Below are positions 7,033-59,056 of a stretch of DNA of 64,000 bases, piece after piece. Below the pieces are notes generated by a model, which made no database searches, had not been told where the DNA came from, and saw only the letters and a program-made list of their open reading frames with translations. The stretch is from Bacteroidales bacterium (GTDB lineage: Bacteria > Bacteroidota > Bacteroidia > Bacteroidales > UBA932). The position numbers and the translations under genes are program-made. The stretch's first letter is position 1. Each line of letters begins with the position of its first letter. The stretch covers positions 27,506 to 91,505 of the forward strand of contig JAFUFS010000018.1 of NCBI GenBank assembly GCA_017469745.1, given 5' to 3'.

Positions 7033-7104
<72 letters not shown>

Positions 7105-7138
7105 CAAATTGCGTGTAATTACTTTAATTCATAATATT

Positions 7139-8332: not shown

Positions 8333-8351
8333 TCCGGCTTACCTGGAATCA

Positions 8352-8403: not shown

Positions 8404-8408
8404 GACAC

Positions 8409-8479
8409 AGGGGAATAGAACAAGGGTAGTTCAGCGGTCTCCAAAACCGTCGATGTGGGTTCGAATCCTGCTTCCCCTG
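8409..8479 (+). tRNA. tRNA-Trp (anticodon CCA)
   Basis: Acceptor AGGGGAA pairs with TTCCCCT, discriminator G; the anticodon loop CTCCAAA gives CCA, reading TGG. Its place between tuf and secE is the common bacterial arrangement. No CCA end is encoded. Confidence 0.95.
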
Positions 8480-8562
8480 CAAAATATCAAAGGTTACGAT
8501 TTGGTAATTGTTTAACAGACACCGCATCCGCTTCCAAATTGTGGTGTCCATTAAATGCAAAG

Positions 8563-35944: not shown

Positions 35945-36352
35945 ATGAAACATATCGAAGTGGTCGCCGCGGTCATCCGTAAAGGCGACCACATTTTTGC
36001 TACCCAGAGGGGTTACGGGGACTTCAAGGACTGGTGGGAATTCCCCGGCGGGAAGATGGAACCGGGAGAATCCAGGGAAGAGGCCCTCGCCAGGGAGATC
36101 CGCGAAGAACTGTCGGCGGAAATCCGGATCGAGAAGCACCTGAAAACCGTGGAGTGGGACTATCCGGCCTTCCACCTGACGCTTCACTGCTTCCTGTGCT
36201 CATTGGCCACGGAAGGAATGCACCTCAACGAGCACGAAGCCGCAAGGTGGCTGGACAGCAAGTCAATATATTCAGTGAACTGGCTCCCGGCCGACGAGGA
36301 CATCCTCCCGCTTATTGCTGAAGAACTGTCCTCTTCGCCTCAGGAGTCATGA
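35945..36352 (+). CDS. Nudix hydrolase, MutT type
   Basis: 135 residues from the ATG at 35945 (M-K-H-I-E-V-V-A-A-V-I); an in-frame TTG at 35936 is less likely. The Nudix box is complete at residues 36-60 (G-K-M-E-P-G-E-S then R-E-E-L), preceded by W-W-E-F-P-G-G as in MutT and other (d)NTP pyrophosphatases. It probably removes oxidised nucleotides such as 8-oxo-dGTP from the pool. The last 41 bases overlap the convergent DUF3298 gene. Confidence 0.88.
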   Translation: MKHIEVVAAVIRKGDHIFATQRGYGDFKDWWEFPGGKMEPGESREEALAREIREELSAEIRIEKHLKTVEWDYPAFHLTLHCFLCSLATEGMHLNEHEAARWLDSKSIYSVNWLPADEDILPLIAEELSSSPQES

Positions 36353-37172
36353 AAGGGGCTATCTCATTGAAAGGCACCACGAAGGAGGGCATGCCCTCAG
36401 CGTAGCTGGCGATCTCATACTGCTGGTAGGTGAAAACCAGACCGTCCTTCGAAGGGAAGGGTTCCCAGCCAGGAAGCGGAATTATTCCGTCCTCGATGAA
36501 GAGCTGGTCCTTAAGCTCGGCCCATTCGACCTTCACACCCATCTCATCGTAATAACGGATCAGGCCCTCCTGCAGGATGGTCTGCATTTCCAGCACTCTG
36601 TCATGGTCAAGCATCTTCTCGACCAGATGGCCGTCCTGCTTGTCGAAAGTCAGGCAGCCGCGTCCGGTCACTCCACCATGGGCACCTCCCATGTAGATGT
36701 AGTCCTGGGACTGGAAAACCACATAGGCGGTGGTGTCGGCAATCTTGTTAAGGGTAAACTCATAGCTCCATGAAGGAAAATCGAACTCTTCACCGGAATA
36801 GGTTGCTCTCTCATCGGCATCCTCCTTGGAGAGACGGCTTATGAGTTCGAAGGCATTGTCATGGTAATAATCAAGGAAGGCCTCGGCATCGGACCGGTCT
36901 CCCTCGAAAGGAGGGAAGAACCTCTCGTTCTCGTACGAGGTGATGCGGCTGAGGATGTCATCCGTCACATCCTGAAGCTCGGTGCGGATAGCCTTAGCCA
37001 CCGCCTCATCCCCGACAGGAAGGTCGACATCCATAGTCAGTGAAGCAAACTCAGCTGAGTCTGAATAATGATAGTTCAAGGTCCGAAACTCCTTCGGGGA
37101 GTTAGTATTGCAGGAAAAGGCGGCTGCCATGACCAGGATGGCAGCGAGAGTTATGAATGAATATCTTTTCAT
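36312..37172 (-). CDS. DUF3298-type lipoprotein
   Basis: 286 residues. MKRYSFITLAAILVMAAAFS-C is a lipoprotein signal with Cys 21. The body has an N-terminal DUF4163-like part (Y-H-Y-S-D-S-A-E-F) and a C-terminal DUF3298 part (M-G-G-A-H-G then T-F-D-K-Q-D-G-H-L then Y-E-I-A-S-Y-A-E-G-M-P), the PdaC/RsiV-like fold that binds peptidoglycan or lysozyme in known cases. It is the last gene of the minus-strand alarmone/partner-switch operon, overlapping the antiporter gene by 4 bases, so an envelope-sensing role is possible but unproven. Confidence 0.8.
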   Translation of the reverse strand: MKRYSFITLAAILVMAAAFSCNTNSPKEFRTLNYHYSDSAEFASLTMDVDLPVGDEAVAKAIRTELQDVTDDILSRITSYENERFFPPFEGDRSDAEAFLDYYHDNAFELISRLSKEDADERATYSGEEFDFPSWSYEFTLNKIADTTAYVVFQSQDYIYMGGAHGGVTGRGCLTFDKQDGHLVEKMLDHDRVLEMQTILQEGLIRYYDEMGVKVEWAELKDQLFIEDGIIPLPGWEPFPSKDGLVFTYQQYEIASYAEGMPSFVVPFNEIAPFMTPEAKRTVLQQ

Positions 37173-38674
37173 GATTCTAACAAATCGTCGTCAGATTCGC
37201 CTACGATGATGACAAGATGGTCTCCCACCTGGAGATGCATGCTGCCATGAGGGACGAGGAAATGATCGCCGCGGCGGACCATCATGACACGTATTCCATG
37301 GGGCAGGGACATGTCCCTCAGGGTAGCTCCACGCATGAGGTCGTCCTCGGAGACGGTGTGGTCACGGAGCATGCCCATCTCATCCGGAATCTCCATTCCG
37401 AAGGTCTCCACCTCAGGATCCTCATCATAGCTGAGCCCGAGCCATTTGGCCATGGGAGAAAGGGTGATGCCCTGGGCAAGCAGGGAAATCAGGGTTATGA
37501 AGAAGACTATGTTGAATATCACCGATGCCCCTTCAAGGCCGACAACCATCGGATACATCGCAAAGAGGATGGGGCCGGCACCCTTCAGGCCTACCCATGA
37601 GACGAAGGCCTTGGCCTTGACGGAGAGATCCCTGAAAGGGAGGAGACAGAGGAACACGGTCGCAGGACGGGCTACGAACATCATGAAGACTCCGATCGCC
37701 AGGGCGGGCAGGGCTACCTTCAGCATGTCTGAAGGATCCACCAGCAGGCCCAGCATGAGGAACATCAACAGCTGCATCAGCCAGGTCATACCGTCGAAGA
37801 ACTTTATCACATCCTTCTTATGCGGAATCTCTGCCTTGTTGTTGATGACGATGGCAGCCACGTAGATGGCAAGCAGACCGTTGCCGTACAGGAGGGATGC
37901 CATGCCGTCAGCGAAGAAACCGATGCTGAGTATCAGGATAGAATAAAGGGAATTGCTTGGAAGTGTCACCTTGGCGAGGACCAGTTTCGCCCCATAGCCG
38001 ACGGCGACTCCGACAAGGAAGCCTACGACTATCTGGACGACGAGGATCCCAAGGCCGGTCCATAACATGGATCCGGAACCTGATGAAACTCCCACAGCGG
38101 ACAGGACCTTGACAAAGATGATCGTGAGCACATAAGCCATCGGGTCGTTGCTTCCGGACTCGAGTTCAAGCATGGGTCCAAGCTGCTCCCTGAGATGCAT
38201 TTTCCTGCCCCTGAGGACAGAAAACACGGACGCTGAGTCCGTCGAACCCATCACAGAAGAAAGCAAGAGACATCCTGTCAAGGAGGCTCCGATAGGTCCG
38301 AGGTATTTCCCAAAGAACAGATAGACAAAGAGGCCGGTCAGGAGGGAGGTCAGGAAAACTCCGAGGGTGGAAAGGATGACTCCCTGTTTCATCACAGGCT
38401 TGGTGTCTGAGAGAGATGTCTCCAGACCGCCGGTGAACAGGATGATCGTCATTGCGAAATGACCGATCGATTCCGCGATGTCGAAGTCATCGAATCTCAA
38501 TCCCAGGCCATCCCCTCCTGCGATCATTCCCACTGTGAGGAAGAGAAGCAGGGAAGGGACACCGTACCGGGAACCTACCTTGGTGACCAGGATGGCGGCG
38601 AAGACCAGCATCGAGGCCAGCAGAAGAAGGTTGCCGGAAAGGAGATTGACCGAAAAGATCGAAAGAGGCATCAT
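37169..38674 (-). CDS. Potassium/proton antiporter (CPA1 type, with RCK_C domain)
   Basis: 501 residues. About twelve helices with the exchanger segment T-G-G-L-E-T-S-L and the G-S-T-D-S-A-S-V-F-S and S-G-S-N-D-P-M-A-Y core of CPA1 antiporters, then a C-terminal RCK_C (TrkA-C) domain (about 415-495) with H-L-Q-V-G-D-H-L-V-I-I, which usually senses a nucleotide. Proteins of this build (CvrA/NhaP2-like) expel K+ or Na+ in exchange for H+. It overlaps the STAS gene upstream and the DUF3298 gene downstream by 4 bases each, so it is tied to the regulatory genes of this operon. Confidence 0.9.
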   Translation of the reverse strand: MMPLSIFSVNLLSGNLLLLASMLVFAAILVTKVGSRYGVPSLLLFLTVGMIAGGDGLGLRFDDFDIAESIGHFAMTIILFTGGLETSLSDTKPVMKQGVILSTLGVFLTSLLTGLFVYLFFGKYLGPIGASLTGCLLLSSVMGSTDSASVFSVLRGRKMHLREQLGPMLELESGSNDPMAYVLTIIFVKVLSAVGVSSGSGSMLWTGLGILVVQIVVGFLVGVAVGYGAKLVLAKVTLPSNSLYSILILSIGFFADGMASLLYGNGLLAIYVAAIVINNKAEIPHKKDVIKFFDGMTWLMQLLMFLMLGLLVDPSDMLKVALPALAIGVFMMFVARPATVFLCLLPFRDLSVKAKAFVSWVGLKGAGPILFAMYPMVVGLEGASVIFNIVFFITLISLLAQGITLSPMAKWLGLSYDEDPEVETFGMEIPDEMGMLRDHTVSEDDLMRGATLRDMSLPHGIRVMMVRRGDHFLVPHGSMHLQVGDHLVIIVGESDDDLLES

Positions 38675-38973
38675 TGGATCTCAAAAAGGTTCAGGAAGCC
38701 GGTCATGAGGAAGACGCTGCGGATGTCGTCATTGATCGAACGGACAATGACCTTTCCGCCCTTCTGGAGGGCAGACTTGCGCAACGTGAGGAAGATCCTC
38801 AGTCCCGAACTGGAGATGTAGGTCATCTTTTCGCAATCGAGGATGGTGGTTCCCGTCGCGTCCTCAAAGAGGGGTGCAAGGGTTTCATTGGCCTCCAGTG
38901 CAGCCGGAGTGTCAAGGCGTCCGATGAACTCCACGACCTTCCCTTCTTCAGTTTTGTTGATCTTAATTTCCAT
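38671..38973 (-). CDS. STAS-domain anti-sigma factor antagonist-like protein
   Basis: 100 residues, a single STAS domain. The phospho-acceptor site is present: Y-I-S-S-S-G-L-R, with Ser at the place that RsbW-type kinases phosphorylate in SpoIIAA/RsbV. It overlaps the upstream phosphatase/kinase gene by 11 bases and the antiporter gene by 4. In known systems the dephosphorylated form frees a partner protein; here no sigma factor is nearby, so the partner may be something else. Confidence 0.92.
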   Translation of the reverse strand: MEIKINKTEEGKVVEFIGRLDTPAALEANETLAPLFEDATGTTILDCEKMTYISSSGLRIFLTLRKSALQKGGKVIVRSINDDIRSVFLMTGFLNLFEIQ

Positions 38974-41161
38974 GGTTATTCAGCTTTTTTGTCAGAGTGA
39001 GTATATTCTTATCGTTTTTCCTCTCGTAAGAGATGGCATCCATGATCTTTCTTGCAAGGTGTATTCCAAGGCCGCCTATCTTCCTTTCCTCAGCTCCAAG
39101 GCTTATGTCCACCTCGGGCATTGCGGTGGGATCGAACGGCTTACCGCTGTCTAAGACTTCGAAGTCGACCGCACCGTCGTTGAAGCGCACCTTGATCTCC
39201 GCGAATCCTTCGGTGCCCTTAGGATAGGCGTACATTATCACGTTGGTGACGATCTCTTCCAGGGCAAGGTTGATTCCCATCTCAGTGCTGGGATCCATCC
39301 CGCACTCCTGAGCTACCCCTTCCACAAATCCTGCCAGACGTGAAACCTGGCTGACTTCGTTGCGGAGCACGATGTGAGGCACATTGCTCCGGGGAAGATC
39401 TCCATTGAGGTAATGGATGAAGAGCATGGTCAGGTCGTCGCTCTGCGGAGCCTGCCCGACGAAATCATTGACATTCGTCTTCATAGTCTCTATGAGGTCC
39501 TCGGCAGTTCTCCTCGTAGAGAGGACGGACATCATCCTCTTCTCTCCGAAAAGATCATGGTCTTTGTTCTCGGCTTCGGTAAGTCCGTCAGTGTAAAGGA
39601 AGATTGCATCATCGTCGTACATCATGATCTCCTGTTCCTGGAAAGACATGTCGTAGACGACTCCCAGGGGAAGGTTCGGCACAACATCCAGCAAGTGCTT
39701 CGTCGCGCTCAGGAACACCGGGGTATTGTGACCTGCATTGCAATAACGCAACTGGCCGGTTGCAAGGTCGAGGATGCCGCAGAAGAACGTTACGAACAAG
39801 CTGTTCTTGTTCATCTCGCTCATACTGTTGTTCATGATCTGTACGATACGGCCCGGGCTGTCCTCGTGGGACGACACCGTACGGAAAAGGCTTCTCGTGA
39901 CCGCCATCACCAGGGAAGCGGGAACGCCCTTGCCTGAAACATCACCGATACAGAAGAACAGTTTCCCGGCCCGGATGAAATAGTCGTAAAGGTCACCTCC
40001 CACTTCCCTGGCAGGGAAAAGAGCTGCCGCCATGTCGAAGTCATGCCTGTCGGAGAAAGGAGACTGGGATGAAGGGATCATGGACATCTGGATGTCGCTT
40101 GCGATCTTGAGCTCGTTCTCCATCAGGTTCTTCTTCTCTGTCAAGTTGTTGTACTTCAACTGGTTCCTCGCTACGAAGCGAATGATGAAGAAGAGCATGA
40201 AAAGACCCAGGAGCTGAAGCAGCCTGACTCTCCAGCCGAGTTTACGGATGTCGCTGTAGATCTCGTCTTCAGGGATCACGATCGACATCGACCAGCCGGT
40301 ACGCTCGACAGGAGCGAAGTAGACATATTCCTTCTTGCCCTTGTAGCGTACTAGCCTGCTTCCGGACTTCCCGGAGAGCATGTCCCTGCTGAGGGTGTCG
40401 AAAGCGGCTTTGTCTTCCAACGAGTCGATGATGTCCTGGATGGTCTTCTTCATGACGAAGGACTGGACAGGGCAGACCATAATCCGGCCAGAACTGCTCG
40501 CCATGACGCTGAATGCGCTGGGGTAGACCTTTACGTCTCCGAACATGCTCGTGAGCCAATCGAGGGAGACGTCGACGGTAAGGATTGCGGCAGTCTTGCC
40601 GGAATCGTCCTTTACAGGCATCGAGAAGGTGGTCATCAGCATCTCTCCTCCGCCCTCGTCGACATAGGGCTCCGACCAGCAGCCCGGTTCGCGGGTAAGA
40701 GCCTTCGAGAACCACTCATGGGAAGGATAGTCGTATTCCGGAGTTGCAAGGGACTTCGTCAAGATCTCCCCGGTGTCCAGGTTGCGGTAGGAATATGGTG
40801 CCAGGAGGGGATTCCTCTTGTAATAGCCGGGGACCAGCGCAACCGTCGAACCTACAACGACAGGATTATCCTCTATGATGCGCCTGGTGACGGCCTCGAG
40901 GCTGTCAGGATGGTCCAGGCACCATCTGGCTATCCACAGATTGTTCCTGAGGGCGGCCTCTGCCTGGTCAAGGACATCCGAAATCTGGATCCTGGTGTTT
41001 TCAAGTTCACCTTCGGCACGCAGCGAGGCTTCGCTCTTCAGGCCCTTAATAGCATAAAAGTACTGGAAGAGGGACGACACCTCGATTATCAAGGCGGCGA
41101 AAAGAACCAGCAGGATGCTGGTCCACACGGACTTCCTCATGATTGGTGTCTGCAGTTTCAT
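38963..41161 (-). CDS. Membrane sensor: Cache, SpoIIE phosphatase and RsbW-type ATPase in one protein
   Basis: 732 residues from the ATG at 41161 (M-K-L-Q-T-P-I-M-R-K). Order: membrane helix about 9-33; periplasmic double-Cache-like sensor about 35-325 (E-W-F-S-K-A, P-Y-V-D-E); second helix about 330-350; coiled coil; SpoIIE/PP2C phosphatase about 385-600 (R-E-V-G-G-D-L-Y-D-Y, I-G-D-V-S-G-K-G-V-P-A, D-G-L-T-E-A); then an RsbW-like HATPase about 615-732 (N-L-A-L-E-E-I-V-T-N, G-G-L-G-I-H-L-A). It thus combines the two opposing enzymes of partner switching. It overlaps the phosphotransferase stop (ATGA) and the STAS gene it most likely acts on. Confidence 0.9.
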   Translation of the reverse strand: MKLQTPIMRKSVWTSILLVLFAALIIEVSSLFQYFYAIKGLKSEASLRAEGELENTRIQISDVLDQAEAALRNNLWIARWCLDHPDSLEAVTRRIIEDNPVVVGSTVALVPGYYKRNPLLAPYSYRNLDTGEILTKSLATPEYDYPSHEWFSKALTREPGCWSEPYVDEGGGEMLMTTFSMPVKDDSGKTAAILTVDVSLDWLTSMFGDVKVYPSAFSVMASSSGRIMVCPVQSFVMKKTIQDIIDSLEDKAAFDTLSRDMLSGKSGSRLVRYKGKKEYVYFAPVERTGWSMSIVIPEDEIYSDIRKLGWRVRLLQLLGLFMLFFIIRFVARNQLKYNNLTEKKNLMENELKIASDIQMSMIPSSQSPFSDRHDFDMAAALFPAREVGGDLYDYFIRAGKLFFCIGDVSGKGVPASLVMAVTRSLFRTVSSHEDSPGRIVQIMNNSMSEMNKNSLFVTFFCGILDLATGQLRYCNAGHNTPVFLSATKHLLDVVPNLPLGVVYDMSFQEQEIMMYDDDAIFLYTDGLTEAENKDHDLFGEKRMMSVLSTRRTAEDLIETMKTNVNDFVGQAPQSDDLTMLFIHYLNGDLPRSNVPHIVLRNEVSQVSRLAGFVEGVAQECGMDPSTEMGINLALEEIVTNVIMYAYPKGTEGFAEIKVRFNDGAVDFEVLDSGKPFDPTAMPEVDISLGAEERKIGGLGIHLARKIMDAISYERKNDKNILTLTKKLNNHGN

Positions 41162-41988
41162 AGTATCGAACTTAAACCGGCACGGAATTCTGGCATGGGA
41201 CACTTGGAGTCCCGTTCAACGATAAGGGTCTTGAGACCGGCATAGGGACGGATCTCTTCCTCGATGTCCTTAAGGGAACGGTCTGGGCCGAAGTAAACCG
41301 GGGCGAAACACTCCCAGAACCTGATAGCCAGGGACTTGGGCATGTGGAAGGTCTCCCGGATGAAATCTTCTCCGCTCATGCAGCAGCAGAGGTAGACCAT
41401 GCCAACGTCAAAAAGATGGTTGCCGTAGCAGAAGTCACCCAGGTCGATGAAATAGCGCTTGTCACCAACGAAAATCGCATTGCTGTACTGGAGATCACCG
41501 TGGATGGCGGTGTCCTCGTCGGGAGTGTCTTCGATGAACTTACCGATCCTGTCCTTTTCGGAGGCTGTGAAGAATGGATTCTCCTCGAGAAGTCTGAAAT
41601 AGCGGTGCTTAACGTTCTCGAAAGAAGACGTGTCGACATGGGTTGAATGAAGCTGCAGACACATCTGAGCGAATTCCGTGGCGTAGCGGTCGACGTTCTC
41701 CGGATCATCGCCGGTGGCCCTTGAATAGGATTTCTTGCCCAGGATCCTATGGAAACGGATTCCGTAGCGACCGTCCTCCGTGACCACATATTCACCGGGC
41801 TCGGGAGTCGGGATGCCAAGGTCATAAACCTTCCTGGCGAGGGTCATCTCGTCCAGAGGCTGGCGGATCTTGCCGGGGAAATAGAGTTTCAGCATCACGG
41901 AGGGATCGGTCTTGTGATCGTAGCTTTCTCCGTTGAAGCCTCCTCCGCTCAGCACGTAGTCATCCAATGATATCTTGATCGCTTCCAT
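41158..41988 (-). CDS. Aminoglycoside-phosphotransferase-like kinase
   Basis: 276 residues from the ATG at 41988; the open frame upstream overlaps the HD gene and lacks homology. The kinase core is seen in the Brenner motif H-G-D-L-Q-Y-S-N-A near residue 161 and the metal motif I-D-L-G-D near 178; the N-terminal lobe has G-G-G-F-N-G-E and L-K-L-Y. The family phosphorylates small molecules such as sugars, choline or antibiotics. The surroundings (alarmone enzymes, partner switch) suggest a housekeeping or signalling substrate rather than drug resistance. It starts 1 base after the HD gene. Confidence 0.82.
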   Translation of the reverse strand: MEAIKISLDDYVLSGGGFNGESYDHKTDPSVMLKLYFPGKIRQPLDEMTLARKVYDLGIPTPEPGEYVVTEDGRYGIRFHRILGKKSYSRATGDDPENVDRYATEFAQMCLQLHSTHVDTSSFENVKHRYFRLLEENPFFTASEKDRIGKFIEDTPDEDTAIHGDLQYSNAIFVGDKRYFIDLGDFCYGNHLFDVGMVYLCCCMSGEDFIRETFHMPKSLAIRFWECFAPVYFGPDRSLKDIEEEIRPYAGLKTLIVERDSKCPMPEFRAGLSSIL

Positions 41989-41989
41989 C

Positions 41990-42574
41990 TTATCCTTCCT
42001 GGGGAAAAACTTGATTGATAAGACCAAGGAACTCCTTGTAAGCTCCTGTGTCCGAAAGGTCCTTGAGGGAATCCGCGAGTCCGCGGTAATGCCATTCGTG
42101 GGATTCCCGATCCTTGACATGGAAAAGGTCCCAAAGGGCATCTCTCTTCTGTGCATAATCCCTGGCTATGGCCCTCATGTTGGAGAGCTTGTCTCCCAGG
42201 GCGACTATCTTGGCATCCCTCGAAGCAGATTGCAGCCTGTCAATGGCGGCCTGCTTACGGTCATGCCAGCTGTCTTCCTCCTTCACTCCCTCCTCGAAGG
42301 TGTCGCTCTCGGATGCCACGATCGAAGCGACCCTGTCGCCGAACTCCCGGCGGATCTGCTCCTGGGTGACAAACGTGTCTTCGACAGTGTCGTGAAGCAC
42401 GGCGGCAGCAAGGAGCTCCTGGTCGGAAGTTATCGTGGAGACTATCTCCATAGCCTCCATCGGATGGACTATGTAAGGGAAACCCTTGCCGCGGCGTTCA
42501 GTCCCGGCATGGGCCTTCACCGCAAAGATGATTGCCCTGTCAAGAAGAGAGGTGTCGAGAGGATTGTTAGGCAT
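41990..42574 (-). CDS. HD-domain hydrolase, MESH1/SpoT type
   Basis: 194 residues, one HD domain. The metal ligands H38 (I-V-H-P), H61-D62 (V-L-H-D-T-V-E-D-T) and the later Asp in A-L-G-D-K-L-S-N-M match the hydrolase half of RelA/SpoT proteins and the stand-alone (p)ppGpp hydrolases of the MESH1 group. The E-D pair after the HD motif is the mark of (p)ppGpp hydrolysis. It overlaps the cytidylate-kinase-like gene by 8 bases and lies one gene from a RelA/SpoT synthetase-type gene, so degradation of the alarmone is the natural role. Confidence 0.85.
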   Translation of the reverse strand: MPNNPLDTSLLDRAIIFAVKAHAGTERRGKGFPYIVHPMEAMEIVSTITSDQELLAAAVLHDTVEDTFVTQEQIRREFGDRVASIVASESDTFEEGVKEEDSWHDRKQAAIDRLQSASRDAKIVALGDKLSNMRAIARDYAQKRDALWDLFHVKDRESHEWHYRGLADSLKDLSDTGAYKEFLGLINQVFPQEG

Positions 42575-43214
42575 GAATATAATTCAGGATGATATCGACC
42601 GCTTCGTCCTCGGTCAGATTGTCCATATTCAGAACCAGGTCATAGTTACGGAGGTCGTAACGGCTGGTTCCGGTGTAACGCTTGATGTAGTTCTCACGTC
42701 CTTCGTCCACGTCGTCGATGAGGATCCCAGCCTGCTCGGCTGTGAAGCCCTGCTTGCGGGAAACCCTTTCCACGCGCTTGTCCCTGGAAGCAGTGATGAA
42801 GATGTCAAGCTTGTTGGGGCAGTCCTTTAGCACGAAGAAACCGGAACGGCCTGCGATTACACAAGATCCTTCGGAAGCGATCGCCTTGAGGATCTCGGAC
42901 TCGGCCTTGAACACCTCTTCGCTGGACAGTTCGGCACGGAATCCAGGATCGATGCTCTTGTCAGTGTCCACGAAGACGCTCTCCTTGGCTACCGGAGCGA
43001 CGAACCTGATGAAGTCAGCGAACCAGTTCTTCTTCTCACCTTTGAGCTTCTCAATGGCATAAGGAGTCAGGTCGAACTTCTTGGAAAGCTCCTTGATGAG
43101 ATCCTTGTCGCTGTAGTAGACCCCAAGCCTTTCGGCGAGCTTGCGTCCCACGGTGCGGCCTCCGGAACCGATCTCGCGGCTGACAGTGATAACGAATTTC
43201 TCTTGTGTGTTCAT
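42567..43214 (-). CDS. Cytidylate-kinase-like P-loop protein
   Basis: 215 residues of the cytidylate-kinase-2 family. The phosphate-binding region reads I-T-V-S-R-E-I-G-S-G-G-R-T-V-G, a P-loop variant without the final K-S/T, as is usual in this family; E-R-L-G-V-Y-Y-S-D-K-D and R-D-K-R-V-E-R-V near 130 follow. True substrates are rarely known. It starts 1 base after the RelA/SpoT gene and overlaps the HD gene, placing a nucleotide-kinase-like protein between alarmone synthesis and breakdown. Confidence 0.85.
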   Translation of the reverse strand: MNTQEKFVITVSREIGSGGRTVGRKLAERLGVYYSDKDLIKELSKKFDLTPYAIEKLKGEKKNWFADFIRFVAPVAKESVFVDTDKSIDPGFRAELSSEEVFKAESEILKAIASEGSCVIAGRSGFFVLKDCPNKLDIFITASRDKRVERVSRKQGFTAEQAGILIDDVDEGRENYIKRYTGTSRYDLRNYDLVLNMDNLTEDEAVDIILNYIHA

Positions 43215-43215
43215 A

Positions 43216-44277
43216 TCATTGGTTCATAAAAGGTAAATCCTTGGATTGCTCCAGCAGGAGCTCCGCCATCATCTCATTGCTGGCGCTCTTTCCGTTCAAG
43301 GCATCGAACATACGGCATATTCCTGCCTTGCCTCCTCCGTTCTTGAGGATGAAGGCGATGCACAGGTTCTGGGGGCCGATCGAAGAAGAGATGATGTCGA
43401 GGTCGGTAAGGCCGATCTGGTAGCAGGCGATCTGGTAGGCGGCTTCTGAATAGTCCTTGACAAGGCGGTCGATGTCGCCCAACGTCTTGAAGCCCATGCC
43501 CAGGAAGATCTTCAGATAAGGCAGCAGGGAGACTTCGTGGATCTCTGCCTGGTTGACGGCCGAAATCCTCTCGTTGAGCCTGTCGAAGGGACGGAGTCCG
43601 AGATAGCTCCTGAAGGAATCGCCGTCGAGAGGGACGTCCTCGAGCTTGCCGGAAGCCACCAGGGTCTTCACACGGCGGCGGTAGTCGGTCAGTTCCGAAC
43701 GGATCTTGCTGAACTCGTCGTCGACAAGCTCCAGCATGCCAGCTAGGCGGCTCATGCTGCGCATGTATCTCTTGGGGATCTCGACTCCAGACTTGTAGCC
43801 CGTGTCGTGGCTCATGTTCGCCCACGCATGCTGAAGGACGGTACGCATCTGGATCTCGAAACGGTACTTGGAGCTGGGGATGCGACAGACATAGTGCAGG
43901 GAAAGATAGCCGAAGCTGTCAATTTCCAGGATCTTTCTCTTGTCGATGGAATTCTCCCAGTCCACTTCGAAGATCCTTTCGATGGCAGAAGCCACCTTGT
44001 CCACATCGTCACTGTAGAAAGTGATGACCCTGAGGCCCACGATGTCGGTTATGTCTGAAAGGGAATGGTACTTCGAACCCTTCAGTTCGAGCTTGCCCCT
44101 GAGGGAAGACTCTTCCTTAACCCTGGACTCGATCGCAGCCACGATAATACCAGCCCGGCCGAGGACCTGGCTGATCTGTTCCTTAAGGCCGGCAGAAGCC
44201 TCCTGGAAGAAGCTCAAGTTATCGTGGTACTCCTGAAGAATTGCTTCAGAATGCGCATCCAACACTAAATTGCCCAT
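43216..44277 (-). CDS. RelA/SpoT-domain (p)ppGpp synthetase-type protein
   Basis: 353 residues. The synthetase domain (about 15-200) shows R-V-K-E-E-S-S-L then K-Y-H-S-L-S-D-I-T-D-I-V-G-L-R-V-I, S-F-G-Y-L-S-L-H-Y and E-I-Q-M-R-T-V-L-Q-H-A-W-A, the diagnostic order of (p)ppGpp synthetases. There is no HD, TGS or ACT domain, so it is a small-alarmone-synthetase-like protein; its C-terminal 150 residues (P-Y-L-K-I-F-L-G-M-G-F-K-T-L) are helical and unassigned. It is the first gene of the eight-gene operon with a good promoter 18 bases upstream. (p)pp(p)GpX chemistry is expected but untested. Confidence 0.85.
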   Translation of the reverse strand: MGNLVLDAHSEAILQEYHDNLSFFQEASAGLKEQISQVLGRAGIIVAAIESRVKEESSLRGKLELKGSKYHSLSDITDIVGLRVITFYSDDVDKVASAIERIFEVDWENSIDKRKILEIDSFGYLSLHYVCRIPSSKYRFEIQMRTVLQHAWANMSHDTGYKSGVEIPKRYMRSMSRLAGMLELVDDEFSKIRSELTDYRRRVKTLVASGKLEDVPLDGDSFRSYLGLRPFDRLNERISAVNQAEIHEVSLLPYLKIFLGMGFKTLGDIDRLVKDYSEAAYQIACYQIGLTDLDIISSSIGPQNLCIAFILKNGGGKAGICRMFDALNGKSASNEMMAELLLEQSKDLPFMNQ

Positions 44278-44294: not shown

Positions 44295-44329
44295 CAAATA
44301 TAATGAATATTCGCGACACTCTAAGCAAA
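44295..44329 (-). promoter_or_regulatory. Promoter of the alarmone/partner-switch operon
   Basis: On the minus strand TTTG (44329-44326), a 23-base spacer and TATATTTG (44302-44295) form a full Bacteroidota promoter. The -33 box overlaps the last codons of the GntP gene, so the operon starts inside the end of the preceding transcript. Confidence 0.65.
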
Positions 44330-52363: not shown

Positions 52364-52464
52364 CACATGCATCAAGAGTCTCCCATGAGGAGCGCCAACC
52401 GAGCAGCCAGAAGCCACGGTGGCAAAGCGATGCGGATTGTTCAACATCAAAAAAAGTCTGTATT

Positions 52465-53148: not shown

Positions 53149-54084
53149 GTGAAGGGCGGTCTCGATTTTCTCGACTTGCTTTCTGCGGGGTTTCGACGCG
53201 TCGACCTGACCACCTTCAAGAAGAATATCAAGTTCTCCGATCTGACGGAGGCTACCTTGACGGAGTTCGTCGCGTATATGCGCGACAGCAAGAAGCTTCG
53301 CACTCCCCGGAAAAAGAAGGGAGAAAGAGAGGATTATGATCAGGAGGACCTGGTGGGCCTGAAGAACTCCACCATTGAGAAGAAGCTGGGCTACCTCCGC
53401 TGGTTTTTGAACTGGGCGACCGACCGGGGCTACAACACCAACCTGGACTATAAGAAATTCCACCCGACCCTGAAGATGACGCAGCGGAAGGTCATTTACC
53501 TCACTAAAGAGGAAATCGCCCGCGTCCGCGACCTGGAACTCTCCGAGGCCCAGGCCTACTTGGATCCTATCCGGGACATCTTCCTGTTCTGCTGCTTCTC
53601 CGGCCTCCGTCACTCCGACGTCAACAACCTTCGTCGCAGCGACATTAAGGGCGACCACATCGAGGTCACGACCGTCAAGACAGCGGACAGCATCTCCATC
53701 GAGCTGAACAAGGTTACCAGGGATATTCTGGAGAAATACAAGGACACCCCCTTCAAGGACAACAAGGCCCTGCCGAACTACACCAACCAGGCAATGAACC
53801 GCGACATCAAGGAGCTGTGCAAACTCGCCGGTATCAATGAAGAGATCCGCGTCACCACCTACAAGGGTAACGTCCGCACGGACAAGATCCAGCCCAAGTG
53901 GGAACTCGTCGGCACCCACACCGGCCGCCGCACCTTCATCGTCAATGCCCTCTCCCTCGGCATCACCCCGAACATCGTGATGAAGTGGACCGGCCACTCC
54001 GACTACAAGGCCATGAAGCCCTACATCGATATCGTGGATTCCATCAAGGCGAGCTCGATGGCGAAGTTTGATGGGCTGATATAG
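53149..54084 (+). CDS. Tyrosine recombinase, N-terminally truncated
   Basis: 311 residues from a GTG that directly follows an in-frame stop. The core-binding (SAM-like) domain spans about 25-100 and the catalytic domain 110-311, with the complete catalytic set: Arg154 (S-G-L-R-H-S-D), Lys178, His257 and Arg260 (H-T-G-R-R), His283 (G-H-S-D) and Tyr292 (K-P-Y-I-D). Bacteroidota phage-type integrases are usually about 400 residues, so some 60-90 residues seem to be missing at the N-terminus. Composition is GC-rich, unlike the genes around it. From codon 101 onward it is duplicated 2.26 kb downstream. Confidence 0.8.
   Translation: MKGGLDFLDLLSAGFRRVDLTTFKKNIKFSDLTEATLTEFVAYMRDSKKLRTPRKKKGEREDYDQEDLVGLKNSTIEKKLGYLRWFLNWATDRGYNTNLDYKKFHPTLKMTQRKVIYLTKEEIARVRDLELSEAQAYLDPIRDIFLFCCFSGLRHSDVNNLRRSDIKGDHIEVTTVKTADSISIELNKVTRDILEKYKDTPFKDNKALPNYTNQAMNRDIKELCKLAGINEEIRVTTYKGNVRTDKIQPKWELVGTHTGRRTFIVNALSLGITPNIVMKWTGHSDYKAMKPYIDIVDSIKASSMAKFDGLI
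53449..54084 (+). repeat. Direct repeat, copy 1 (recombinase catalytic domain)
   Basis: This 636-base segment is repeated at 55709-56344 in the same orientation with no length change; the translated copies differ at seven residues that I could count. The repeat begins exactly at the Tyr101 codon. Recombination between the copies would delete the ATPase gene between them. Confidence 0.9.
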
Positions 54085-54090
54085 TATAGG

Positions 54091-54139
54091 AGAAAATCAG
54101 CCAAAACCAGAGGTTTTTCTTCATTTTGGCTGATTTTCT
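54091..54139 (+). repeat. Inverted repeat with CAGCCAAAA core, left of the ATPase gene
   Basis: AGAAAATCAGCCAAAA (54091-54106) and its exact complement (54124-54139) form a 16-bp perfect stem with a 17-base loop, 6 bases after the recombinase stop. It can act as a terminator in either direction. The same 9-base core forms the hairpin on the other side of the ATPase gene. Confidence 0.85.
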
Positions 54140-54161
54140 ATGGCAATAAAAGGATTATTAT

Positions 54162-54169
54162 TATCTTTG
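54162..54169 (+). promoter_or_regulatory. -7 promoter element of the ATPase gene
   Basis: TATCTTTG, 21 bases before the ATG at 54191. It lies inside the longer open frame from 54140, which therefore is not the true start. The right arm of the inverted repeat supplies a weak TTTC 23 bases upstream. Confidence 0.5.
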
Positions 54170-54190
54170 TCTCAACTAATTAGCATAACG

Positions 54191-55651
54191 ATGAGCTCAT
54201 CCACAGTTATCGGCAGAGAAGAAGAACTTGCCACTATCTCAAGACTCTATGCGTCAGACCGTTCTGAGTTTCTTGCCCTTTACGGCAGACGCCGCGTGGG
54301 TAAGTCCTTCCTAATTGAAGAAGCCCTTGAGAACAAGTTTGCATTTATGACTGTTGGCTTGTATATCAAGGTAGACAAAGACGATACTGAGAAGGTGGAA
54401 TCCTACCGCCAGCAGCAACTCCGACATTTCTATAGTAGCCTCTTGGAGTATGGACTGCCGGAAGAAGGTAATTCTGTACCAACCAATTGGCTGGATGCGA
54501 TGAACTTGCTCAAGAAACTCCTCTTAAGCAAACGTTCTCGTCGCAAGGTGGTTTTCATTGATGAATTGCCCTGGCTAGCCGGTCCTCAGTCCTCGGAACT
54601 AGTGAGCGAACTTGGTTTTTTCTGGAACCAATGGGCTCGTAAGCGCAAAGATATCTTCCTCATTGTTTGCGGTTCTGCAACCAGTTGGATGATAGATAAT
54701 GTGATTCGGGAATACGGCGGTCTTTATGGCAGAACGACCGAAACCATCGCCCTCAAACCATTCACACTTGCAGAATGCGAACGTTACTGGGAGAAGCGTG
54801 GTTTTCATCTTTCCAGGTACGAAGTTGCGCTCACCTATATGGTAATAGGCGGAGTCCCGTACTATATGGATAGTTTCCGGCCGGATCGCACGATGGCCGA
54901 CAACATCAACACCATTTATTTCAGCAAGGACAAAGCTCGTCAAGAGTTCAAAGACGTTTACGCTGGCCTTTATTCCACATCCGATGTTTATATCAAAGTC
55001 ATTCGACAACTTGGTAAGAACTTCTATGGGATGTCGCGGAAAGATCTTCTCGATGCCGTGGACAAGAAGGGAGGCGGCACTTTCTCGGAAGTCCTAGAGA
55101 ATCTAATAGATTCCGGAATCATTAGGAGTTACGACCTATATGGTGGACCCAGGAAGCAGACTATCTACCAGCTTATGGACTTTTTCACTCTGTTCTATTT
55201 GCGGTTTTGCGAGACCCCGGACTTTACTTCCTGGCGTTCAGTGCAAAGGAGCAAACCCTTCTATACTTGGGCGGGAAACACTTTCGAGCTTCTAATCATT
55301 GAACATATGCCCCAACTCGCAGACGCGCTCCGTATCAAAGAATATGCTACCCCCTTCAGTTGGAGAGGGGAGACTCCGGATGGCGTTGGCGCTCAGATTG
55401 ACCTCGTCATTCCTGCAACGGCAGAACGTTCAGATTACATTTGCGAGATGAAGTTTTCGGAAGGCAAATACATCCTGAAAGATGACGACACAACTGAGAT
55501 TACTAATCAGATAGCTGCATTAAGGAACTCCAACATCCACAAGCCCAGTCACTCCACTTATGTAGCTCTTGTGACTTCGTTTGGTGTTACTGAATCTAAG
55601 CATAGAAGCCATATCAATGATATAGTTACGCTGGATTCTTTGTTTGTATAA
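54191..55651 (+). CDS. Archaeal-type P-loop ATPase with DUF234 C-terminal domain
   Basis: 486 residues from the ATG after the promoter. The start V-I-G-R-E-E-E-L-A-T-I-S leads to Walker A Y-G-R-R-R-V-G-K-S (residues 31-39) and Walker B V-F-I-D-E-L; sensor-like C-G-S-A-T-S-W-M follows. The second half (about 290-486) has a winged-helix part and the DUF234 domain, which resembles a restriction-type nuclease fold (E-M-K-F-S-E-G at 430). This family is common and multi-copy in archaea and anaerobic bacteria, and its role is not settled. AT-richer than the flanking recombinase copies, it appears to be cargo. Confidence 0.88.
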   Translation: MSSSTVIGREEELATISRLYASDRSEFLALYGRRRVGKSFLIEEALENKFAFMTVGLYIKVDKDDTEKVESYRQQQLRHFYSSLLEYGLPEEGNSVPTNWLDAMNLLKKLLLSKRSRRKVVFIDELPWLAGPQSSELVSELGFFWNQWARKRKDIFLIVCGSATSWMIDNVIREYGGLYGRTTETIALKPFTLAECERYWEKRGFHLSRYEVALTYMVIGGVPYYMDSFRPDRTMADNINTIYFSKDKARQEFKDVYAGLYSTSDVYIKVIRQLGKNFYGMSRKDLLDAVDKKGGGTFSEVLENLIDSGIIRSYDLYGGPRKQTIYQLMDFFTLFYLRFCETPDFTSWRSVQRSKPFYTWAGNTFELLIIEHMPQLADALRIKEYATPFSWRGETPDGVGAQIDLVIPATAERSDYICEMKFSEGKYILKDDDTTEITNQIAALRNSNIHKPSHSTYVALVTSFGVTESKHRSHINDIVTLDSLFV

Positions 55652-55653
55652 TT

Positions 55654-55688
55654 CAGCCAAAACAGAAAGAAAGTCGTCGTTTTGGCTG
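55654..55688 (+). repeat. Inverted repeat with CAGCCAAAA core, right of the ATPase gene
   Basis: CAGCCAAAAC (55654-55663) and GTTTTGGCTG (55679-55688) form a perfect 10-bp stem just 2 bases after the ATPase stop. Its core equals that of the left hairpin. It probably ends the ATPase transcript and may also mark the border of the inserted unit. Confidence 0.8.
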
Positions 55689-55708
55689 CTTTTCGAGCTC
55701 ACAGATAA

Positions 55709-56344
55709 TATAAGAAGTTCCGCCCGACACTCAAGATGACGCAGCGGAAGGTCATCTATCTCACCAAGGAGGAGATCGCCCGCGTCCGCGACCTGGAGCT
55801 CTCCGAATCCCCGGCCTACCTGGATCCTATCCGGGACATCTTCCTGTTCTGCTGCTTCTCCGGCCTCCGGCACTCCGACGTCAACAATCTCCGCCGCAGC
55901 GACATCAAGGGTGACCACATCGAAGTCACGACCGTCAAGACAGCGGACAGCATCTCCATCGAACTGAACAAGGTTACCAGGGATATTCTGAAGAAATACA
56001 AGGACACCCCTTTCAAGGATAACAAGGCCCTGCCGAACTATACCAACCAGGCGATGAACAGCGACATCAAGGAACTGTGCATGCTCGCCGGCATCAATGA
56101 AGAGATCCGCGTCACAACCTACAAGGGCAACGTCCGCACCGACAAGATCCAGCCCAAGTGGGAACTCGTCGGTACCCATACCGGTCGCCGCACCTTCATC
56201 GTCAACGCCCTGTCCCTCGGCATTACCCCGAACATCGTGATGAAGTGGACTGGCCACTCCGACTACAAGGCCATGAAGCCCTACATCGACATCGTGGATT
56301 CCATCAAGGCGAGTTCGATGACGAAGTTTGACGGGCTAATCTAA
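55709..56344 (+). pseudogene. Tyrosine recombinase catalytic domain only (direct repeat, copy 2)
   Basis: The open frame matches residues 101-311 of the upstream recombinase with seven substitutions (for example Q135P and K225M) and no gaps. It is preceded by an in-frame stop at 55706-55708 and the first ATG lies at 55736, so the DNA-binding N-terminal domain is absent. All catalytic residues (R, K, H, R, H, Y) are retained. Such a piece is unlikely to recombine alone, though a free catalytic domain could be made. The conserved reading frame suggests a recent duplication or gene conversion. Confidence 0.75.
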
Positions 56345-56408
56345 GTTCTTAAACCTCATGCTATAGCCGAGAGGTCGAAGATGCTGCCTGCTGTTAAAAT
56401 CGATGATT

Positions 56409-57101
56409 CTATATGCCAGAATGGAGAACCTCTTTCTCGAAGCCATATTTGCCAATCAACTCTTGTATGATATCCTTGTACCAGGGTTTTGAAAACGGAG
56501 CCACAAAAATGCTCTCAATCAGTTCATTCAAGTCCACCTTGAATAATAGACCTTCCGGCGTATTATTAAATCTGCCATCTGTATCCCAGAACATTGCTCT
56601 TAGCTCCTTCTCTGCACTAAAATAGGGACGTTTTGAAAAATGTGGGGCAATCATGTTTGCGATGCCTCCTGTCAATCGAAACGAATAGTCCGACTCATAA
56701 TCGATGTACTGAACATTTGATACATATACATTCCTAGGATCATTCGGGTCAAATGCAGAGATTAGTCTTAAAACAGTTGACTGAACCGCGACCCCATCTT
56801 TTAAGGAAGCATATGAGTTCCATAACACATATTCATCAGTATCAGCCTTTGTCCAGCAGTTCGAATATGTACAACCCAACGAGTCTCCGGTCATACCACT
56901 CGTCATCCCAGCCGATTTACTCTCAAAAAAAGCTATATCCTTCTTGGTCATTGCGCCTTCAAAACTATCATCGAATTTGTCTTGGCGGCACAAGTAAAGG
57001 GAAGAGCTACTAATAAGACTTAAGAATTTTGGCAAAGTGAAATAATGCCATATTTTCTGATAGGGGTCTATCGGCGGAAGGCTTGGGTGCTGTATGTACA
57101 T
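56409..57101 (-). CDS. DUF2971-like protein
   Basis: 230 residues. Y-F-T-L-P-K-F-L-S-L-I then L-Y-L-C-R-Q-D-K-F-D-D-S-F-E-G and C-W-T-K-A-D-T-D-E-Y-V-L-W-N-S-Y fit the DUF2971 outline (N-terminal W/Y-x(3)-L, a D-P/S-F-E motif, C-W-x(6)-E-x-x-x-M/L-W). The family is common in defence and mobile regions but has no known activity. It is separated by 3 bases from the membrane-protein gene upstream, so the two are likely one transcript. Strongly AT-rich for this genome. Confidence 0.65.
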   Translation of the reverse strand: MYIQHPSLPPIDPYQKIWHYFTLPKFLSLISSSSLYLCRQDKFDDSFEGAMTKKDIAFFESKSAGMTSGMTGDSLGCTYSNCWTKADTDEYVLWNSYASLKDGVAVQSTVLRLISAFDPNDPRNVYVSNVQYIDYESDYSFRLTGGIANMIAPHFSKRPYFSAEKELRAMFWDTDGRFNNTPEGLLFKVDLNELIESIFVAPFSKPWYKDIIQELIGKYGFEKEVLHSGI

Positions 57102-57104
57102 TGT

Positions 57105-57974
57105 CTATTCGGTCTCAGATGTTACTGTTTCTTTCTCTTCAAGAGTTTGTTCCTTATTCTCAAACATCGGCTCCTTGGAATAATCATCCGCTTCCTCGGA
57201 TTGGTCTGTCACTTTCTTGAGATAGCCAGAAAACCCCTCGAAAGAAGATTCCAGTTTATTGAGGCTCTTAGCAATTTGGTCAAGGCTCTTTTGGACTGGC
57301 ATATATGAATTATTCTGTACGATAAGCCCTTTCTTTATATAAGACATCGTTGTTTCAAGGTCCCCCTGAACTAAAACAAATGTCTTGTCCATAAAGAAAT
57401 TCATGTCCAATTCCTCATCAATGGGAAAGGAATCATTGTAACGTCCCTTCATCTTAATGATAACATTCTTGTCTTTCCAAGTCTTATTGACTTCTTCACA
57501 AAAGCCCAGGAACAAATGCCTGCTCATACCTGCCTCAATAAAAAAAGGAGAAGACAGTTGTCTAAAAGCAACACGGAATCTTTCTTCTTTTAACTCATTT
57601 AAGAAATCCTCATTGAAGTTGATGACCGCGTTGTAGACATTTCGCTTTCCTATATTGCTGATTTTAAGCATGAACGCCTGTTGGTACACGATCACACTAA
57701 AAACGAGACGTGCTCTTTCCTCTTCCTCTCGCTGGATTCTCATTTGCTCCAGCTGTTTTTTATTTTGTTGGAGTGATTTATATGTGAAATATATCATCCC
57801 AAAAGATGCAACTGCGCTGAGATAAACCGGCCAGAAAGCGAGCCATGTTGTTCCATCACCAACCACAGGGACAATCGCATTTTGCTGTAATATCCAATTC
57901 AATAGGATTGGAAATACAAGAAGAGCCACTATCGCTATAATGATGACCCCAAGTTGCTTCTCTTTCTTTTTCAT
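57105..57974 (-). CDS. Membrane protein of unknown function with coiled coil
   Basis: 289 residues. Two helices (about 9-31 and 46-66) are followed by a charged coiled coil (K-K-Q-L-E-Q-M-R-I-Q-R-E-E-E-E-R-A-R) and a beta-rich domain of about 110 residues (F-M-L-K-I-S-N-I-G-K-R-N-V-Y) that looks like the small soluble domains found beside phage-defence genes. The C-terminus is a second helical, acidic tail. I do not recognise the family. It is located between the AbiE toxin gene and the DUF2971 gene, with 17 and 3 bases between them. Confidence 0.6.
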   Translation of the reverse strand: MKKKEKQLGVIIIAIVALLVFPILLNWILQQNAIVPVVGDGTTWLAFWPVYLSAVASFGMIYFTYKSLQQNKKQLEQMRIQREEEERARLVFSVIVYQQAFMLKISNIGKRNVYNAVINFNEDFLNELKEERFRVAFRQLSSPFFIEAGMSRHLFLGFCEEVNKTWKDKNVIIKMKGRYNDSFPIDEELDMNFFMDKTFVLVQGDLETTMSYIKKGLIVQNNSYMPVQKSLDQIAKSLNKLESSFEGFSGYLKKVTDQSEEADDYSKEPMFENKEQTLEEKETVTSETE

Positions 57975-57991
57975 ACAAATCTAATAATTCG

Positions 57992-59047: not shown

Positions 59048-59056
59048 CTCTCAAAC

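Follow-up and report, generated by a model that had tools for sequence, protein, structure and literature searches.

In Pseudomonas aeruginosa, the co-transcribed SiaABCD genes encode a phosphatase and a kinase that set the phosphorylation of a STAS-like protein, and this protein binds and controls a nucleotide second-messenger synthase, the diguanylate cyclase SiaD, according to the passages available from two reports (PMC8457831, PMC7647112). The same species encodes HsbR-HsbA-HsbD, in which, as far as the excerpted account goes, HsbR acts as kinase and phosphatase on a serine of the STAS protein HsbA, and HsbA binds a second-messenger synthase, the diguanylate cyclase HsbD (PMC5085249). The action of SiaABC and HsbRA on diguanylate cyclases is the precedent for the proposal made here, that a STAS protein may control a pair of alarmone enzymes.

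We analyzed 64,000 nucleotides of DNA (the window) from a Bacteroidales bacterium (UBA932; assembly GCA_017469745.1, contig JAFUFS010000018.1, positions 27,506-91,505 of the forward strand). The window contains an operon of eight minus-strand open reading frames, here called A to H (36312-44277). Alarmone synthesis usually answers internal starvation or the expression level of small synthetases, and we know of no partner switch shown to govern alarmone enzymes directly. Searches of the open-licence PMC library yielded no description of such a link, and the two listed papers that contain both terms treat them separately. We propose that the operon encodes a self-contained module in which a partner switch controls a dedicated alarmone synthetase/hydrolase pair, a reading on which we would place about half of our confidence.

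A compact operon of eight genes

Every junction in the operon overlaps by 4 to 11 bases or leaves a single base, as the first-pass annotation had described, and Pfam or NCBIfam profile matches support the family labels that it gave to all eight genes. One base separates A from B and C from D; the overlaps are 8 bases at B/C, 4 at D/E, F/G, and G/H, and 11 at E/F, lengths that assume that D starts at ATG 41988 and E at ATG 41161. Longer frames are also present for D (ATG 42156) and E (GTG 41203). Matches in relatives begin at the shorter starts, an observation biased by the use of the shorter proteins as queries.

The first-pass annotation placed the operon behind one good promoter. A TAnnTTTG motif, which we take to be a Bacteroidales-type -7 element, lies at 44295..44302 on the minus strand, 17 bases upstream of the ATG of A, in a 43-base gap downstream of a GntP gene on the same strand. 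However, the -33 element is off-spaced by manual count, and a sigma-70 scan listed no site directly before A (7 sites against a shuffled mean of 5.3). Among relatives with the gene order ACDEF, TAnnTTTG occurs within about 120 bases upstream of A in 39 of 57 rows and is absent from 18 (the rows represent 56 loci, L119 contributing two). It is found upstream of C, D, E, and F in 2, 2, 0, and 3 of these 56 loci, and the shuffled expectation upstream of A is about 4.5 per 99 rows. The alarmone enzymes and the partner-switching module probably share one transcript. Rfam, at gathering thresholds, detected no RNA family within or upstream of the operon.

A five-gene core is conserved in variable order

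Flanking genes were viewed for most related loci. Most counts below refer either to the 56 related loci for which 7 kb of flank is available (well-flanked loci) or to the best 80 of 191 loci, a selection that samples A's near relatives. Neither set includes the window's own locus. C, D, E, and F accompany A in 51 of the 56 well-flanked loci, and each of them is missing from 3 to 5. A stands without E and F alongside in four (L097, L115, L124, and L136). Neighbors are tightly packed, with a median gap between match ends of 11 bases over 338 pairs. Their order is not fixed: ACDEF, EFACD, AEFCD, and DEFAC all occur, C is the gene immediately after A in 60 of the best 80 of 191 loci, and the order label changes 23 times on the tree of A, cut and partial loci included. 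The conserved unit is a five-gene core of A, C, D, E, and F whose order is variable; G is a frequent companion, and B and H are accessories. The fixed order of eight families that had been expected is literally not conserved, but the five-gene set is kept. In our view, retention of a gene set across reshufflings is a stronger sign of functional linkage than a fixed order. We rejected chance adjacency as an account of the operon.

B (42567..43214, minus strand) is cytidylate-kinase-like by its profile match (PF13189) and lies beside A in 7 of the 56 well-flanked loci. H (36312..37172, minus strand) is a DUF3298/PdaC protein whose start reads as lipoprotein-like, and it is a same-strand neighbor of A in 1 of the 56. 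Both were rejected as core genes on these counts. Among 100 loci, H is matched in L062, in L161, and in L084, there on the opposite strand; it is a lineage-specific accessory.

The module is rare and patchily distributed. It is present in 7 of 295 genomes of the order and in 2 of the 9 genomes listed for the host genus, and its carriers are uncultured gut bacteria, many from ruminants. Across the wider phylum, A was found at 1e-20 in 9 of 395 genomes, its own included. Of 119 genomes of the family, 18 encode A, 19 encode C (all the A carriers plus one), and 16 encode D (all A carriers), a co-occurrence with Fisher values of 2e-20 and 6e-18 when kinship is ignored. At the threshold used, ten distant A loci showed no C, D, E, or F next to A, and in one genome (G297) C occurs with none of A, D, E, or F alongside.

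The predicted alarmone enzymes and the kinase

By its sequence features, A (43216..44277, minus strand) is a predicted small alarmone synthetase. It has a RelA_SpoT synthetase domain (PF04607) and no hydrolase domain, it matches YjbM and other GTP pyrophosphokinase structures, and R52, K54, D78, Y124, and E141, which we take to be catalytic, are kept in 99 of 99 rows, window included. A RelP/RelQ-like core (residues ~45-200) is followed by a clade-specific helical C-terminal domain (~205-353) that has no Pfam match and no PDB profile match past about residue 200; in twelve distant relatives this domain scored 6.4 bits at best. The AF2 model of A has a mean pLDDT of 85.7 and a pTM of 0.62. The host genome encodes two PF04607 proteins, one of them long.

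C (41990..42574, minus strand) would be a small alarmone hydrolase, with a single SpoT-type HD domain (HD_4, PF13328), an HDxxED motif, and no synthetase. It matches SAH and Rel/SpoT structures as well as TIGR00691 over its first 124 positions, and H61, D62, E65, D66, D128, and N132 are present in 87 of 87 proteins. The earlier label of HD hydrolase thus holds for the family and can be refined to the small alarmone hydrolase type. D (41158..41988, minus strand) is an APH-like kinase (PF01636) of the TIGR02172 type, scoring 222.4 bits against a cut-off of 228.2, a threshold that its relatives in G081 and G185 exceed. Its AF2 model is confident (mean pLDDT 94.9, pTM 0.90), its profile found a single weak match in the PDB, and K34, E47, H163, D165, N170, and D182 are kept in 85 of 85 proteins.

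The partner switch and the antiporter

E (38963..41161, minus strand) joins a dCache sensor, a SpoIIE/PP2C phosphatase, and an RsbW-type kinase in one chain (PDC/dCache, SpoIIE, and HATPase_c_2 profiles), with membrane segments read from the sequence. All 58 scanned proteins, window included, have the identical domain set, and D390, D407, D575, D576, E635, E636, and N640 are found in 79 of 79. E also matches structure 3ke6, that of M. tuberculosis Rv1364c. dCache domains are as a rule extracytoplasmic sensors, so the trigger may be a ligand outside the cell and not starvation within it, unlike the nutrient stress first proposed. Such a ligand would agree with the presence of a binding-protein gene, which lies directly before E, at 1-55 bases, in 12 of the 12 loci that carry it, and it is of the NMT1 type in the one scanned.

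F (38671..38973, minus strand) matches the STAS profile. Its predicted phosphosite, Ser55, is assigned by analogy with RsbV/SpoIIAA, and Ser55 and Gly57 are both present in 82 of 82 proteins. Together, E and F supply the parts list of a partner switch, namely a PP2C/SpoIIE phosphatase, an RsbW-type kinase, and a STAS protein with a conserved serine. Above cut-off, the host genome (98.5% complete, so that others could be missed) encodes one SpoIIE, one STAS, and one HATPase_c_2 domain, all inside the operon. Since the host has no second set above cut-off, operon partners are the most likely targets of the switch.

G (37169..38674, minus strand) is a CPA-type K+/H+ antiporter with Na_H_Exchanger and TrkA_C domains. 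It passes two of the NCBIfam PRK05326 models (NF003716, 522.3 against a cut-off of 355; NF003715, 436.4 against 309) and falls under the 471 of NF003714 with 367.2. G lies beside A in 38 of the 56 well-flanked loci and is missing from 18, so ion exchange can be no more than one of the outputs. The first-pass annotation had linked alarmone signaling, partner switching, and ion exchange in a relay that sets cytosolic pH or K+; the link between the first two is conserved, and an output in pH or K+ is speculative.

What the switch may control

In the module that we propose, the dCache domain of E would read an extracytoplasmic ligand and shift the balance of the phosphatase against the kinase, and this balance would determine the phosphorylation state of F at Ser55. 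In one of its states F would bind and gate operon partners, most likely A and D, by direct contact and in a direction that we presume. D would act with hydrolase C; six related genomes encode the two as a fusion. The net output would be a pulse of a (p)ppGpp-type alarmone called from outside the cell and separate from the long Rel protein, with G, where present, as a co-expressed effector. A more specific version, in which a dCache receptor and a STAS switch control a private (p)ppGpp pair and D is a protein kinase that bridges F and C, is in our estimate less likely than not. Both bridges of D, to the STAS protein and to the hydrolase, exist as natural fusions, which point to direct STAS-kinase and kinase-hydrolase contacts.

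Mirror-tree comparisons are consistent with a link between F and the synthetase domain of A. Their distances correlate with r = 0.66 in 66 loci and r = 0.57 in 52 ACDEF-order loci (thinned of near-duplicates from 70 and 53), and partial Mantel values given the C, D, and E parts are 0.45 and 0.32, with p = 0.001, the floor of 999 permutations. On the other hand, in the ACDEF-only loci F follows the phosphatase of E (0.58) as closely as it follows A, and F-A exceeds F-C in only 69% of subsamples. The method is noisy, since pairwise distances depend on one another, the loci share ancestry, and the permutation makes no correction for kinship, and we use it as supportive only; the sets omit proteins that are broken (four E, one G) or outside set length ranges.

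The switch might instead act on D, and through D on hydrolase C rather than on A, with D a protein or small-molecule kinase docked by the STAS protein and alarmone control exerted indirectly by hydrolysis. We consider this unlikely but worth weighing. In one genome (G229), a STAS-APH fusion of F and D lies beside a dCache-SpoIIE-RsbW gene; G229 falls outside the set of A carriers, so the partner of F may be D and not A. The C-D fusions, a C-D partial correlation of 0.43-0.49, and the intact kinase motifs of D point the same way. So does the distribution of TIGR02172: at 1e-20, 3 of 198 genomes in the order have a match, and each of the three carries A (the distant fused copy of G229, at 104 bits, is outside this list, and G229 is not necessarily among those 198). 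However, the F-D partial correlation is low (0.10-0.14, against 0.27-0.30 for F and the A synthetase), and F adjoins A in EFACD loci. Less probable again is that A and C are a toxSAS-like toxin and antitoxin, perhaps serving in phage defence, whose other neighbors have no functional tie to them. FaRel is reported to share an operon with an SAH antitoxin (PMC11782079), a plasmid record from Bacteroides finegoldii that also encodes phage capsid, portal, and terminase carries a relative of A, part of A resembles the PADLOC candidate family PDC-S33 (7.9e-16, over profile positions 64-175 of 349), and presence is patchy in the host genus. Relatives of A occur in 19 records of the phage collection and 39 of the plasmid collection, each below 60% identity and none covering 80% of A. 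Against this reading, PADLOC gave a weak match for B and nothing for C to H at 0.001, and the core comprises five genes, rather than a two- or three-gene unit, with the partners' active-site residues intact. The profile of A is also nearer to RelP/RelQ-type structures (6e-17 to 4e-15) than to 7ztb, which we take to be CapRel, and FaRel2 (0.011 to 0.048).

We give slightly less credence still to a classical RsbUVW-type switch on an unlinked sigma factor, with the alarmone genes and antiporter as co-regulated stress genes. E and F do contain SpoIIE, RsbW, and RsbV parts, and E-F pairs occur away from A (L172, L181, and L182). E-type proteins are also much commoner than A, which weighs against our main reading as well: matches at 1e-60, mostly to the phosphatase or kinase half, occur in 32 of 119 family genomes and 37 of 295 genomes of the order, and 17 and 31 of these lack a strong match to A. 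Conversely, at 1e-60 no E match was found in three genomes with A (G325, G358, and G371), although a weaker E adjoins A in the first two. Against the sigma-factor reading, none of the eight operon genes matches a sigma factor, reshuffled loci keep A, C, and D beside E-F, and fusions join D to F and to C. Finally, an ion-homeostasis switch, with the antiporter gated by the STAS protein and a secondary role for the alarmone enzymes, seems very improbable: G often adjoins E or F or sits between them (ordered pairs EG 19, FG 18, and GF 18 in the best 80 of 191), but it is absent beside A far more often than any of C, D, E, or F.

If the proposed control of the alarmone pair by the partner switch is true, growth control in these gut bacteria could follow an external cue, and partner switching would extend from sigma factors and c-di-GMP to (p)ppGpp.

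Comparison with known systems

A resembles RelP/RelQ (YjbM, YwaC) in its synthetase core and catalytic residues. Unlike them, it carries a helical C-terminal domain of about 150 residues, and it is encoded beside a hydrolase in a partner-switch context. The E and F proteins share SpoIIE phosphatase, RsbW kinase, and STAS parts with RsbU-RsbV-RsbW and SpoIIE-SpoIIAA-SpoIIAB, and the fusion of phosphatase and kinase also occurs in Rv1364c of M. tuberculosis. In contrast to these systems, E has a dCache input, and a sigma factor as operon target is absent among the eight genes.

Like FaRel/ATfaRel, the operon sets a synthetase beside a small alarmone hydrolase, but sensor, switch, and kinase go unmentioned in the available passages of that report (PMC11782079); A is nearer to RelP/RelQ than to FaRel2, the member that was compared in place of FaRel itself. 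For Bacteroidia, the excerpted RSH survey gives Rel plus RshB as the typical set, and its table row carries one further mark of uncertain assignment (PMC3153485).

The closest parallels in mode of action come from P. aeruginosa. HsbR differs from E as a response regulator fed by HptB, the Hsb outputs are c-di-GMP and FlgM, and no hydrolase or APH kinase is mentioned for Hsb in the passages available (PMC5085249). Like SiaABCD, the operon encodes a phosphatase; E aligns with the SiaA model of NCBIfam at its phosphatase end, at 46.4 bits (cut-off 700). Unlike SiaABCD, it fuses the kinase to the phosphatase in E, has an alarmone synthetase and hydrolase and no diguanylate cyclase, and adds an APH-like kinase and an antiporter. 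F is a true STAS protein, so that STAS and RelA_SpoT replace the DUF1987 protein SiaC and SiaD. The module is not SiaABCD, and its likeness to that system would lie in its mode of action.

The operon and its promoter

The segment at 36312-44277 carries eight genes on the minus strand, in which neighbors either overlap by 4-11 bases or stand one base apart, so the eight-gene operon described in the first-pass annotation is borne out. Domain and family matches identify them, in transcript order, as a small alarmone synthetase (A), a cytidylate-kinase-like protein (B), a hydrolase of the small alarmone hydrolase type (C), an APH-like kinase (D), a dCache-SpoIIE-RsbW protein (E), a STAS protein (F), a K+/H+ antiporter with TrkA_C (G), and a DUF3298/PdaC protein (H), all on the minus strand. 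Upstream, a same-strand GntP permease gene ends 43 bases from A, and the gap contains TAnnTTTG (44302-44295), which we take to be a Bacteroidales-type -7 promoter element. Downstream, a NUDIX gene on the opposite strand overlaps the end of H.

In related loci with the order ACDEF, this element lies no more than about 120 bases upstream of A in 39 of 57 A rows, which come from 56 loci because locus L119 contributes a second, weak row. The shuffled expectation before A is about 4.5 of 99. Before the inner genes of these loci the element occurs in 2/56 (C), 2/56 (D), 0/56 (E), 3/56 (F), and 3/28 (G) cases. The pattern is less clean in EFACD loci (A 4/12, C 5/12, E 4/10) and AEFCD loci (A 3/3, D 3/3).

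Elsewhere in the window, five tRNA genes lie at 6753-8480 (+), with Thr, Tyr, Gly, and Thr clustered and Trp 1.3 kb further on, and a SAM-I/IV riboswitch scores above the gathering score at 52364-52464 (+). The low-GC segment at 53149-59653 is likely a mobile island; its phage integrase gene recurs as a partial second copy (300-nt direct repeat, 92%), an ATPase_2 gene is also present, and an AbiEii toxin-family gene with a DUF6088 neighbor follows.

A conserved core in a minority of genomes

Among 295 genomes of the order, 7 have a strong match to A (>300 bits), as do 18 among 119 of the family; two further weak matches in each sample are left out. A is present in two of the nine listed members of the host genus. 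Record titles for the best 80 of 191 loci with relatives of A on genome contigs (one scan) identify the sources as uncultured Bacteroidales or Bacteroidia; ruminant gut sites or RUG isolates (presumably rumen genomes) account for many of them and horse faeces for one. Additionally, a 357-aa (p)ppGpp synthetase with 43% identity to A over residues 11-218 is encoded at L197:4995-6068 on a Bacteroides finegoldii plasmid record that has phage capsid, portal, and terminase genes (NZ_OY725946.1).

Fifty-six of these best 80 loci have at least 7 kb on either side of A. The same-strand companions beside A were, from most to least frequent, C (53 loci), E and F (52 each), D (51), G (38), B (7), and H (1). 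C, D, E, and F were all present in 51, and at least one was missing in L097, L111, L115, L124, and L136. The median gap between match ends was 11 bases, and 92% were 40 bases or less (338 neighbor pairs within 1.5 kb). Across the family sample, each of the 18 genomes with A also has C, which otherwise occurs only in G297; D is present in 16 of these 18 and nowhere else. The earlier proposal of a stress relay that joins the eight families and sets cytosolic pH or K+ is partly supported: the core of C, D, E, and F beside A stands, whereas gene order varies, B and H are seldom present, and control of pH or K+ is a hypothetical output.

Over 98 A-bearing loci, the most frequent arrangement was ACDEF, G being present in some and absent in others, followed by ACDGEF, EGFACD, AEGFCD, and others, and flanking genes were highly varied among the loci seen. 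When mapped onto a maximum-likelihood tree built from 99 A proteins, the order labels require 23 changes, and EFACD alone requires five; since the class "other" includes cut contigs, true rearrangements are fewer than 23. One module contains an E-F-E-F tandem duplication (L108:12468-17450). At four loci lacking E-F beside A (L146, L147, L136, L137), genes resembling by eye an amino-acid-type ABC transporter (a binding protein-permease fusion and an ATPase) lie immediately upstream of A.

Intact enzymes and a variable sensor

Residues that we take to be key, picked from the RelP/RelQ, SpoT, APH, PP2C, SpoIIAB, and RsbV families, are kept throughout alignments that include the window and exclude truncated, fused, or odd-length proteins, hence the unequal denominators: R52, K54, D78, Y124, and E141 of A (99/99); HDxxED and D128/N132 of C (87/87); K34, E47, H163, D165, N170, and D182 of D (85/85); D390, D407, D575, and D576 with kinase E635/E636/N640 of E (79/79); and S55 and G57 of F (82/82). 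The A core matches YjbM and further GTP pyrophosphokinase structures; the PDB matches of C are to small alarmone hydrolases and to the hydrolase domains of Rel. A has an additional C-terminal domain (about 205-353), scarcely detectable in distant relatives and predicted to be mainly helical with generally high local confidence (pTM 0.62 over the whole chain).

E by itself is not module-specific. At 1e-60, the family sample of 119 contains 32 genomes that match E, of which 15 also have a strong A match and 17 do not; in the order sample of 295, 37 genomes match E, 6 of them together with a strong A match and 31 without. Many of the matches span only the phosphatase or kinase half. Since many of these genomes have no strong A match, dCache-SpoIIE proteins have other uses too, the module being one. 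The sensor half of E is by far its most variable part (mean distance 1.15 versus 0.56 for the phosphatase), and in 12/12 loci that carry a binding-protein gene (NMT1/THI5 type in L090, the one scanned), this gene immediately precedes E, with 1-55 bases between them. On these grounds the sensor input seems exchangeable. At L172 and L181, E-F pairs apart from A adjoin genes whose products are very large (2353 and 2301 aa, respectively), the former resembling a nonribosomal peptide synthetase by eye.

What would the switch act on?

In the host genome, which is 98.5% complete at 2.38 Mb, one SpoIIE, one STAS, and one HATPase_c_2 domain score over the cut-off, all inside the operon; a second HATPase_c_2 match, on contig C16, is sub-threshold. 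Because no further such component exceeds the cut-off, the operon neighbors are the likeliest switch targets, judging from a domain search that covered these three families. Two RelA_SpoT proteins are encoded, an 804-residue frame and A. For Bacteroidia, the 2011 RSH survey (PMC3153485) names Rel and RshB as typical, and its table row bears one additional mark.

Co-evolution offers indirect support for a link between F and A. Over 66 loci, the inter-locus distances of F correlated most strongly with those of the synthetase domain of A (0.66); the values were lower for the C-terminal domain of A (0.57), for C (0.53) and D (0.51), and for the kinase (0.49) and phosphatase (0.48) parts of E. In the 52 loci of order ACDEF, in which three genes (C, D, and E) intervene between A and F, the F-A synthetase value (0.57) equaled that for E phosphatase (0.58), was near that for C (0.53), and exceeded that for E kinase (0.43). 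Partial Mantel values for F-A given the C, D, and E parts were 0.45 and 0.32 (p 0.001 in both cases, the lowest value that 999 permutations allow). The highest partial values of all between-protein pairs belonged to C-D (0.49, 0.43), which are fused elsewhere, and this supports the method.

In six genomes (G081, G185, G343, G358, G371, G394), one uninterrupted reading frame of 470-510 residues encodes both C and D. Moreover, in G229, a genome outside the set with an A match, the neighbor of a dCache-SpoIIE-RsbW gene joins a STAS domain to a D-type kinase (L148:8745-9995 (-), TIGR02172 104 bits). These fusions suggest that D is a hub linking the switch to the alarmone hydrolase. Two genomes, G343 and G394, encode the SpoIIE and RsbW-type parts of E as separate proteins; a domain scan of the G394 pair shows the first to be dCache-HAMP-SpoIIE and the second to be fused to a DAGK_cat/YegS_C protein. 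At L175:10313-11617, a fusion of a diacylglycerol-kinase-like protein (DAGK_cat and YegS_C) to an RsbW-type kinase domain lies within the module, flanked by the C-D fusion and the phosphatase.

We infer every step of the most likely chain, which would run from ligand through E and F to A and/or D and the alarmone. An outside ligand would bind the dCache domain of E, which would then shift between phosphatase and kinase action and alter the phosphorylation state of F at the predicted Ser55. F would dock onto A and/or D; A would make the alarmone, C, coupled to D, would remove it, and G, where present, would follow as an ion-exchange effector.

Searches of an open-licence library listed no paper describing a link between alarmones and partner switching. 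Partner switches that act on diguanylate cyclases include SiaABCD (PMC8457831, PMC7647112), HsbRAD (PMC5085249), and BgrSTUWV. The module would follow the same logic but differs in its predicted messenger, its fused kinase/phosphatase, its adjacent hydrolase, and its APH-like kinase.
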